Part shown: positions 1 to 4,741 of the stretch, one piece after another
How the letters are laid out: each line of letters opens with the position of its first letter
Position numbering within the stretch: the stretch's first letter is position 1
Assembly: GCF_000626675.1 (NCBI RefSeq)
Contig: NZ_CP006842.1
Span: 868,001-932,000 of the forward strand
DNA from: Corynebacterium glyciniphilum AJ 3170
Lineage (GTDB): Bacteria > Actinomycetota > Actinomycetes > Mycobacteriales > Mycobacteriaceae
DNA: 64,000 bases
Direction: 5' to 3'
Translations under genes and position numbers: made by a program
The notes under the pieces: generated by a model
What the model was told of the DNA's origin: nothing
Databases searched by the model: none
The model's input: only the letters and a program-made list of their open reading frames with translations

Positions 1-1854
1 GTGGCGGGGTGGACGGTGACGGACGCTGACGCACGTCCCACGCCGGTCGGTCTCGTTACCGCGGCGGTGCAGATCCTCGGGGGGGCCGAGGGACTGCGGC
101 ATCCTGCAGCGCCGCTGCGGGCGTTGTACCTGCGCCGTCCCGATGCAGTGGAACCGAAGGCGGTACAGGTTTCCGCGGCCCTCGACTTCAGCAGTGTGGA
201 GGAGGTCGATGACGTCGACGGGGCAGGTAAGGCGGCGTCGCCGGACGATGTGACGGGTGCGGAGCGACCGAGCGTGGGGCCTCTCTCCCCTCAGGCCGCG
301 GCCCGGTGCGCCGAGATCGAGGCGGAGCTCTTCCGCGGGGACTCGCCGTGGCCGGAGGCGGGGTTCGCCAGTGAGATCACCGCGCCGAACACGGTCTATC
401 TGGGCATGGTCACCGGGCAAGGAACATCGCAGGAGCGGTTGGTCGGCTATGCCGGTCTGGCGAAGAACGGTCCGGCTGACGATCCGGAGTTCGAGATCCA
501 TACGATCGGCCTGGAGCCTGCCGTGCAGGGGCGCGGGTGGTCGCGCACGCTGATGGATCCGTTGATGGACCTCGCAGACAGGGACGATGGTCCGGTCTAC
601 CTGGAGGTCCGGACCGACAACGATCCGGCGATCCGTCTGTACCGCAGCTACGGTTTCGACATTACCGGCACCCGCCGGAACTACTACCGGCCTTCCGGTG
701 CGGACGCCTACACGATGTGCCGCCCGGCGCGGTCACAGCGCATCTCGGAGGCGCCCCGCCTGATCATGGGAATCGAGAGCTCCTGTGACGAGACCGGCGT
801 GGGAGTCGTCGAACTGCATTCCGACGGGCGGGTCCGGCAGGTGTCGAACCGGGTGGCCTCATCGATGGAGCAGCATGCCCGTTTCGGTGGGGTGGTCCCG
901 GAGATCGCCTCCCGTGCACACCTGGAATCGATGGGCCCGACGATGACGGCGGCCCTCGACGATCTTGAACGGGCCACGGCGGCCACCGGGAGGCGTCGCC
1001 GTCCGGACGCGGTTGCGGCGACGGTGGGACCCGGTCTCGCCGGGGCACTGTTGGTCGGGGCGGCGGCAGCCAAGGCGTACGCGGCAGCGTGGGGTGTGCC
1101 GTTCTACGGTGTCAATCACCTCGGGGGCCACGTTGCCGTCGGCACGCTCGAGGCGGGCGGTGACTCTGGCGCGGTCGGCGATCTCGATCGCGCGGTCGCA
1201 CTGCTGGTCAGCGGTGGGCACACGCAGATCCTCCGGGTCAACGGGGTCGGCAGTCCGATGGCGGAGTTGGGTTCCACGCTGGACGACGCCGCCGGTGAGG
1301 CCTACGACAAGGTTGCCCGGTTGCTCGGCCTCGGGTACCCGGGAGGGCCCGTGATCGACCGGCTCGCTGCGCGGGGGGACTCCGCGGCGATCGCCTTCCC
1401 CCGGGGGATGAGCCGCCCCGGGGACGCCGCCTACGACTTCTCCTTCTCCGGGCTCAAGACGGCGGTCGCCCGATTCGTAGAGAAGGCCACTACGGAGGGC
1501 CGCAGCATCCCGGTTGAAGACGTCTGTGCCTCCTTCCAGGAGGCGGTCGTGGACGTGTTGACCGCGAAAGCGGTCCGGGCCTGTGTGGACACCGGCGCCA
1601 CGGTGATGCTGCTGGGTGGGGGAGTGTCGGCCAACCGCCGTCTGCGGGCGCTCGCCGCCGAGCGGTGTGCGGAGGCAGGTGTGCGTCTGGTCGTCCCGGC
1701 CCTGCCCCTGTGCACGGACAACGGTGTGATGATCGCGACGCTGGCGGCACGGTTGATCGAGGCCGGTGCCCCGGCCAGTTCACTGGATGCCGCGACGGAT
1801 CCGTCGATGGATGTCGAGGTGCCGGTCTTAGCACCCACCCTTGTTGAGGGCTAG
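1..1854 (+). CDS. tsaD: TsaB(C-terminus)-RimI-TsaD fusion, 5' end cut by window
   Basis: This is an open frame of 617 codons that enters from the window edge. Residues 1 to about 60 look like the C-terminus of TsaB, including a YLRRPDAV motif. Residues about 90-240 are a GNAT acetyltransferase of the RimI type, with an acetyl-CoA loop QGRGW at 176-180. TsaD begins at about Met256 ([11 protein letters not shown]) and carries the HxxxH metal pair H373/H377, [15 protein letters not shown] and [11 protein letters not shown]. TsaD transfers the threonylcarbamoyl group to A37 of ANN-decoding tRNAs together with TsaB. RimI acetylates the ribosomal protein S18 N-terminus. Actinobacteria often have these as adjacent genes, but here they form one reading frame. 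The true start lies outside the window, so the TsaB part can only be inferred from its tail. The stop codon overlaps the CIRCE operator of groES. Confidence 0.9.
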
Positions 1855-1877
1855 CACTTGGCAGGGTAGAGTGCCAA
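1851..1877 (+). promoter_or_regulatory. CIRCE operator (HrcA site) of groES-groEL
   Basis: The sequence CTAGCACTT, nine bases, then GAGTGCCAA matches the CIRCE consensus TTAGCACTC-N9-GAGTGCTAA at 15 of 18 positions. It lies 114 bases before the groES start and overlaps the tsaD stop codon (1852-1854). A second, perfect inverted repeat with 9-bp arms (1855-1863 and 1872-1880) is nested in the same place. HrcA normally represses groE through this element until heat stress. Confidence 0.87.
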
Positions 1878-4148: not shown

Positions 4149-4469
4149 TCAGGACGCCAGGCGGCGGCTTTCCCGGGCGGGCCGGAGACGCCGGGCGCGT
4201 CCGTTCTGGGCGGCGGCCCGTTCGGATTCGCCCATCCCGCCCCAGATCCCGTAGACCTCCCCGACGCTGAGGGCATGCTCCTTGCACTGGGCCAGTACCG
4301 GGCATTCGTTGCAGATGGCCTTGGCGCGGTGTTCCCGCAATGAGCGTGCCCGCCCTCGTTCTCCGTCAGGGTGGAAAAAGACGGCGGACTCTGCTCCACG
4401 GCAGGAACCGTGGAGTTGCCAGTCCCAGAAGGTGGTGGCGGGGCCGGGGAGGTCGCTCGTCTGTGGCAT
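4149..4469 (-). CDS. whcB: WhiB-family iron-sulfur regulator (WhiB3/WhcB type)
   Basis: This 106-residue protein has the four WhiB cysteines that hold a [4Fe-4S] cluster (C23, C53, C56, C62, with CNECPVLAQC) and the G-[IV]-W-G-G turn at 74-78. A basic C-terminal tail (RARRLRPARESRR) is typical of the DNA-binding end. WhiB proteins act as redox-responsive transcription factors that bind the primary sigma factor. The ATG at 4469 was chosen because GGAGA lies just upstream; the frame continues further but without similarity. Its place between groEL1 and sigD matches whiB3 of mycobacteria and whcB of C. glutamicum, which supports the name. The exact regulon is not visible. Confidence 0.92.
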   Translation of the reverse strand: MPQTSDLPGPATTFWDWQLHGSCRGAESAVFFHPDGERGRARSLREHRAKAICNECPVLAQCKEHALSVGEVYGIWGGMGESERAAAQNGRARRLRPARESRRLAS

Positions 4470-4741
4470 GGCTGTTCTCCTGTACGTCAGTATTTCTGAG
4501 TTCTGAGTTCGGCGGATCTGCGTTTTTCCACCGGCCCCCAGGGTCGTCCCCGTGTGTGAACAACAGGTGTCCGGCAGCTGTTCAGGATGTGACATTTTCC
4601 GTGCCCGGCATCCTGCGGTTCCCGCCGGGTATTACCGGGTGAGTCCCGGGCGCGCGGTTTGCTGTGGTAATTTCACCCCACAGGCAGGCGAGCTTGACCG
4701 GCGAACCGACAGCCTGCCCTGACCGTGGTTTCACGAGGACT

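Follow-up and report, generated by a model that had tools for sequence, protein, structure and literature searches.

A fused TsaB-RimI-TsaD reading frame in Corynebacterium glyciniphilum and a clade of its congeners

The fused gene and its reading frame

The window analysed here, a stretch of 64,000 nucleotides from Corynebacterium glyciniphilum AJ 3170 (G000:C1:868001-932000), opens within a gene that joins the domains of TsaB, RimI and TsaD, which belong to an essential tRNA modification pathway and are ordinarily encoded by neighbouring genes. Window bases 1-1854 form a single open frame which, when read in the host genome within the surrounding stretch L003 (G000:C1:862001-880000), extends upstream of window base 1. 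Read from stop to stop (L003:5341-7854), this frame comprises 837 codons with no internal stops, and NCBIfam models of all three proteins match it above their cut-offs, namely TsaB (TIGR03725; residues 49-265; 151.8 bits, cut-off: 69.3), RimI (TIGR01575; residues 321-459; 92.1 bits, cut-off: 86.4) and TsaD (TIGR03723; residues 475-805; 402.6 bits, cut-off: 296.1), with residues counted along the 837-codon frame. A Pfam scan agrees in identifying TsaD-type and GNAT domains, and neither a stop nor a frameshift occurs in the frame between the TsaB tail and RimI. An earlier sequence-only reading, which saw only the tail of TsaB, had proposed a three-part protein, and the upstream extension bears this out, giving a full TsaB without a stop ahead of RimI and a full TsaD.

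The most likely start codon is the ATG at L003:5479 (C1:867479), located 522 bases upstream of window base 1, which is thereby the first base of codon 175. The predicted product is 791 amino acids long (81.7 kDa), the same length as the database protein P0001; the sequence used for the early queries (L003:5482-7851) lacked the first Met. A TTG at L003:5341 was rejected as the start because a covarying RNA element lies ahead of the ATG and because the TsaB frames of relatives are closed upstream, with a stop found 1 to 7 codons ahead of the TsaB start in L009, L010, L014 and L018. The frame of C. variabile (L013) is open for 38 codons upstream of its TsaB start and is uninformative for this choice. 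A profile search with PF00814 found no second locus in this genome, and the fused gene is therefore the sole TsaB and TsaD found in it.

The features of the gene that fall within the window are listed in Table 1. We take Glu376 and Tyr388 to be the general base and general acid positions of RimI, while H547 and H551 of the HLGGH motif are presumably the metal-binding His pair of TsaD and Asp747 its third metal ligand. The linker between TsaB and RimI is variable in length, with 19-98 amino acids between the profile ends in the 33 fused Corynebacterium sequences (hereafter rows) described below.

Table 1. Features of the tsaB-rimI-tsaD gene within the window (residues numbered from the ATG at L003:5479)
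Feature	Window position	Strand	Remarks
C-terminal part of TsaB domain	1..168	+	Residues 175-230, conserved tail; residues 1-174 upstream at G000:C1:867479-868000
TsaB-RimI linker	169..264	+	Residues 231-262; partly under pLDDT 50
RimI-type GNAT domain	265..738	+	Residues 263-420
Possible internal start GTG, start of RimI domain	274..276	+	GGAG at 261-264 ahead
Acetyl-CoA loop QGRGWS	526..543	+	Residues 350-355; final position Ser
Glu376	604..606	+	Glu in 33/33 fused rows
Tyr388	640..642	+	Tyr in 33/33 fused rows
Short RimI-TsaD linker	739..756	+	7-50 amino acids between profile ends (33 fused rows)
Complete TsaD domain	757..1851	+	Residues 427-791
HLGGH	1117..1131	+	H547, H551; His in 233/233 rows at both positions
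Asp747	1717..1719	+	Asp in 233/233 rows
Stop codon TAG of fused gene	1852..1854	+	Within CIRCE-like site

Distribution and origins of the fusion

The genus was surveyed across 242 Corynebacterium genomes, one per species, of which 240 gave a match. Loci were read in 113 of the 242: TsaB, RimI and TsaD all lie in one frame in 33 genomes and in three separate frames in 72. RimI and TsaD are separate in a further four loci with TsaB outside the fetched stretch (L139, L187, L190 and L193), the fetched stretch holds only TsaD in three (L181, L189 and L194), and TsaB and TsaD are separate in G239, with RimI outside the comparison. The remaining 129 genomes were classed by listed TsaD frames of fewer than 700 codons, by the lack of a match (G065 and G189) or as a fragment (G168). 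Listed frame lengths were used to exclude only, as they exceed the true frame in several of the loci read (in G238, 792 listed against a TsaD frame of 350 in L131). No half-fused form, with one junction only, was found among the genus loci with a readable junction. A set of 80 named loci comprises five fused (L034-L038, including C. variabile L036) and 75 separate cases, the five appearing to repeat surveyed genomes. PF00814 gave no match in G065 or in the control C. glutamicum, which presumably has gcp, though both genomes are complete; masked sequence is the likely cause and no absence is claimed.

The recurrence of this layout in 33 genomes bears on the notion that a sequencing or assembly artefact, through a lost stop or a frameshift, joined three separate genes. 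The contig is 3.5 Mb in size, and the database search called for by the sequence-only reading returned many proteins that align over 99-100 percent of the query. With the same layout in relatives and in database proteins, an artefact was rejected, its probability being negligible.

Trees were built for 233 distinct TsaD domains, including the 33 fused Corynebacterium rows, seven fused rows from Coriobacteriia and 138 unfused near relatives. The 33 fused Corynebacterium rows form one clade in FastTree trees of both TsaD alone and the concatenation, with two state changes on the whole tree, and they received a Shimodaira-Hasegawa-like approximate likelihood ratio test (SH-aLRT) value of 99 in an IQ-TREE analysis of 90 rows (all 40 fused rows, joined by 34 from the 138 unfused near relatives and 16 from the remaining 54, drawn at random). 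Several origins within the genus were rejected on the single clade in all three trees. A common origin with the fusion of the Coriobacteriia was likewise rejected, as uniting the 40 fused rows costs 264 log-likelihood units (approximately unbiased test, p-AU: 6e-6), and the Coriobacteriia fusion therefore represents a separate, second origin.

We infer the class of this second group from the source name of the homologue P0142, truncated at '[Egg', and from a published Coriobacterium example (PMC3571937). Among 40 stretches fetched from a phylum sample, mostly chosen for long frames, fused frames were read in seven genomes of the Coriobacteriia families f26 and f40, and a class-wide draw gave at least 60 of 149 genomes with one stop-free TsaB-to-TsaD match, split or stop-containing matches being left out. 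G372, of family f48, has a RimI-TsaD fusion only (L226 and L266), in which RimI sits on the TsaD N-terminus as in the triple fusion, and its TsaB lies in a separate frame. Four-part TsaE-TsaB-RimI-TsaD frames of about 1040-1115 amino acids occur in family f26 (L336, L337 and L338), in three of four stretches fetched from 138 family genomes searched, with the fourth (L339) broken before TsaD. Two of the three were confirmed by NCBIfam, and the database protein P0195 contains the same four parts, its RimI scoring 80.8 against the cut-off of 86.4. Such a frame holds the entire bacterial TsaBDE core and RimI in one chain. No paper on a protein of this kind turned up in the open-licence PMC literature, where no search by that name was made.

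Probable translation as one chain and the RimI domain

Start signals at the two junctions were scanned as a start codon with a Shine-Dalgarno (SD)-like 4-mer in a set spacing. SD-like starts near RimI are found in 56 of the 138 unfused rows, whereas only 3 of the 33 fused rows have one; near TsaD the counts are 84/138 and 2/33, respectively. An ATG near RimI is present in 84 of the unfused rows but in a single fused row. This clade-wide pattern fits, without proving, a loss of unused signals after the fusion. A fixed 1:1:1 stoichiometry is predicted from the single frame.

Several points in the genes weigh against this reading, and would suit the making of separate proteins, in addition to the fused chain or in its place, through translation starting internally at RimI or TsaD, or through cleavage within the linkers. 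The C. glyciniphilum gene is itself one of the three fused rows with an SD-like start before RimI (the GTG at window 274), so that initiation there may take place in this gene. The sequence-only reading had held that an in-frame stop or a clear start between the TsaB tail and RimI, just upstream of base 1, or ribosome data placing a start at about residue 85, would refute a fusion; the stop is absent, the GTG at 250-252 near that residue lacks an SD-like 4-mer at the spacing scanned, and a start before RimI is still conceivable at the GTG at 274. Furthermore, 25/33 fused rows have an ATG near the TsaD start, in no case accompanied by an SD-like 4-mer within this spacing; that of C. glyciniphilum (window 766) is preceded at about 14 nucleotides, outside this spacing, by a GGAGG (747-751). 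The first linker is also disordered in the structure model. Given the drop in SD-like starts across the clade, and as no unfused row falls within it, separate products are nonetheless considered quite improbable.

An AlphaFold2 model of the fused protein, built with 73 sequences out of 120 homologues listed, has a predicted local distance difference test (pLDDT) score of 88 and a predicted template modelling (pTM) score of 0.85, the latter suggesting a defined domain arrangement. The three domains match solved structures of TsaD, YeaZ and Ard1/RimI, and for each of the 37 solved sequences matched (E up to 1e-5) the best stretch stays within a single domain. The tail of TsaB (Y217-D222) is invariant in the 73 rows and leads on into RimI.

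TsaB-TsaD pairing via a helical bundle is required for bacterial t6A (N6-threonylcarbamoyladenosine) synthesis (PMC9654439), and in Aquifex the TsaB C-terminal tail, together with a TsaD hairpin, controls TsaE and tRNA binding (PMC11648230). We consider it likely that the predicted 791-residue protein serves as the organism's only TsaB and TsaD, a covalent TsaB-TsaD pair forming the core of the t6A synthase with a tethered GNAT domain. Within the one chain, TsaB would fold back onto TsaD, giving a helical-bundle pair as in the complexes of separate TsaB and TsaD. Together with TsaE, which is fused to Alr in the adjoining gene, and TsaC, it would transfer threonylcarbamoyl to A37 of ANN-decoding tRNAs. 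As the TsaB C-terminal tail is the arm that bears RimI, the fusion may also affect the TsaE and tRNA binding step.

Evidence from the models and from the literature also weighs against this proposal. The fusion of the Coriobacteriia gave a weaker model (pLDDT 78, pTM 0.72; 36 rows, four of them from Corynebacterium and 32 of the Coriobacteriia kind), and the pTM score is the sole indication from which pairing of TsaB and TsaD in cis is inferred. According to PMC4926160, RimI-TsaB and TsaB-TsaD contacts went unseen in a two-hybrid-like study, and RimI failed to acetylate the folded TsaB-TsaD complex. TsaB and TsaD might instead pair in trans between two chains, producing an intertwined dimer, which the linkers would permit and for which the TsaD2B2 tetramers of Thermotoga and Aquifex (PMC11648230) offer a precedent. 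The pTM of 0.85 was obtained for one chain and argues, if indirectly, against this arrangement, which we regard as conceivable but doubtful.

The sequence-only reading had noted an altered acetyl-CoA loop in RimI, and this proved to be widespread in the fused genes. Compared with Q/R-x-x-G-x-G/A, which we take to be the consensus, the QGRGWS of C. glyciniphilum keeps the Q and the first G and has a final Ser instead of Gly or Ala. The final position is Ser in 29 and Ala in four of the 33 fused rows, and Gly in 108, Ala in 29 and Ser in one of the 138 unfused rows, while the seven Coriobacteriia rows have Ala. The altered loop is therefore a feature of the clade, and probably arose through one or a few substitutions on the tree rather than 29 separate ones.

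The same reading's tie between t6A synthesis and acetylation of ribosomal protein S18 found no support. The single S18 gene found in the genome has the N-terminus MKRTNHKKAR, with Lys in place of the Ala that follows the initiator Met in the substrate of an S18-alanine acetyltransferase. Taking as the S18 start codon the candidate located about 17 residues ahead of KKNP, we compared the residue following it in 31 genomes: it is Lys in 17/17 fused and 12/14 unfused species, no S18 with the classical N-terminal Ala occurring among the former, and Ala in two of the 14 unfused (G226 and G519, the latter belonging to another genus and having a second S18). As Met-Lys prevails in the unfused relatives too, the S18 N-terminus is not linked to the fusion. 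The relaxed, NatE-like specificity of Mycobacterium tuberculosis RimI (PMC4926160) makes Met-Lys ends or other proteins possible substrates. The RimI domain between TsaB and TsaD would as such be a tethered, probably active N-alpha-acetyltransferase, for which an S18 with N-terminal Ala is an unlikely substrate because the organism's own S18 starts with Met-Lys.

The one loop residue deviating from the GNAT consensus counts against an active enzyme, and with the lack of the classical Ala on S18 could indicate that the domain has ceased to be an acetyltransferase and persists as a spacer or acetyl-CoA sensor. The catalytic Glu and Tyr positions are, however, retained throughout the fused rows (Table 1), the domain scores above the RimI cut-off, and the Met-Lys S18 prevails in the unfused genomes too. 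Divergence of RimI and TsaB showed no clear difference between fused and unfused rows, RimI evolving no faster than in its unfused relatives, and loss of the activity is as such deemed unlikely. A more speculative proposal, to which we give a slim chance, is that in the Corynebacterium clade RimI was recruited to bind acetyl-CoA and thereby regulate t6A synthesis from within the protein; positioned on the TsaB tail that gates TsaE and tRNA, with a re-tuned Ser loop, it would tie tRNA modification to the acetyl-CoA supply, instead of acetylating an S18 N-terminal Ala absent from this lineage.

Gene neighbourhood and comparison with known systems

TsaE is present once in the genome, as the C-terminus of alanine racemase in an Alr-TsaE fusion directly upstream (L003:3482-5296; 604 amino acids). 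Where the locus includes both genes, Alr-TsaE forms a single frame in 16/26 fused and 7/77 unfused rows. Two Sua5/YrdC-type (TsaC-type) genes occur in the genome. Downstream of the fused gene lie groES and groEL, their translations being judged by eye, and two inverted repeats resembling CIRCE (controlling inverted repeat of chaperone expression) precede groES at window 1851-1877 and 1828-1854 (three mismatches each; none in 100 shuffles). The former encloses the fused gene's stop codon. Beyond groEL, the minus strand carries a small Cys-containing frame (4149-4506) that appears WhiB-like by eye only.

A conserved covarying RNA element is located between alr-tsaE and the fused gene (L003:5378-5447; G000:C1:867378-867447). 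It consists of a 5′ hairpin, GGAUCACC-GUGAGG-GGUGUAUCC, followed by a long GC stem, and its motif was found in 21 of the 33 fused loci (a first pattern gave 20) and in none of the 138 unfused rows, where 320 nucleotides before the TsaB match were searched, at most four rows at the wrong place with TsaB outside the stretch. Folding covered 17 of the 21 loci, divided into a short type (10 rows, seven distinct) and a long type (seven rows). Pairs changed on both sides number 6/22 in the short and 10/24 in the long type, and the share of paired cells is 100 and 98.8 percent, respectively, on structures derived from the same alignments. The 5′ hairpin has no two-sided changes, and for the short type one of five measures failed to beat shuffles. 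A model of the long type detects the short type with E-values between 0.0004 and 0.008 and, across 100 sources and with E allowed up to 1, picks up none of the unfused loci, while the short-type model detects the long type at 0.003 to 0.07, along with two weak others, L038 (0.27) and L103 (0.9), and minus-strand echoes. No Rfam family matched L003 at the gathering threshold, the best below it being Scr3202 on the minus strand (22.6 against 52 bits), and five matches in six relatives all fell below gathering. The element may be a leader or a small RNA. About 8 nucleotides before the fusion ATG, a TAGGAT hexamer (TAGAAT in C. variabile) is present in 6/6 aligned sequences (L003:5465-5481) and is possibly the -10 box of a leaderless transcript; scans for sigma-70 promoters and terminators found nothing in the region upstream of the fusion.

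The order of these genes and their neighbours is shared with the alr-tsaE-tsaB-rimI-tsaD-groES-groEL1 operon of M. tuberculosis (PMC5335608), but there the genes are described as unfused, whereas C. glyciniphilum has two fused genes, Alr-TsaE and TsaB-RimI-TsaD. The sequence-only reading held that two-domain fusions are the most that occurs. This is contradicted by Oberto (2013), who described a yeaZ::rimI::ygjD fusion in Coriobacterium glomerans and, in Clavibacter, a fusion of alr with yjeE, and who proposed that RimI and Alr are partner proteins of the complex (PMC3571937). The C. glyciniphilum gene resembles this fusion in its domains, in their order and in forming a single stop-free gene, and differs in its separate origin and in the Ser that ends the loop where the Coriobacteriia have Ala. 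The source name of the homologue P0002, beginning 'multifunctional tRNA ... dimerization subun', points the same way. Two-part TsaB-RimI fusions of M. leprae, Bordetella and Achromobacter (PMC5335608, PMC4926160, PMC3157347) likewise join TsaB to RimI, but in a chain reported without TsaD. Judging by structure titles, TsaN (PDB 8ide) and Kae1-Bud32 (3en9, 2vwb) also fuse TsaD/Kae1 to parts of the pathway, although the partners named are TsaC/Sua5/TcdA or the Bud32 kinase, and neither TsaB nor RimI. Pfam and NCBIfam scans of the fused chain (E up to 0.001) detected neither a Bud32 kinase nor a TsaC/TcdA domain, and the Kae1-Bud32 model PRK09605 matches it by the Kae1 part only (192.1, cut-off: 447).

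The kind of triple fusion has thus been known since 2013 and the Corynebacterium instance, on which no paper was found in the open-licence PMC literature, is a further member of it; what the present analysis adds is its separate origin, the clade of 33 species, the loss of start sites over that clade and the altered loop. Why rimI resides with the t6A genes is described as an open question in the literature (PMC3157347, PMC4926160). That triple fusions arose twice independently, and that one is present in all 33 rows of a clade with few internal starts, suggests an advantage in uniting the three activities in a single molecule, and the fusion offers a single purifiable protein in which the link between RimI, TsaB and TsaD may be directly tested.
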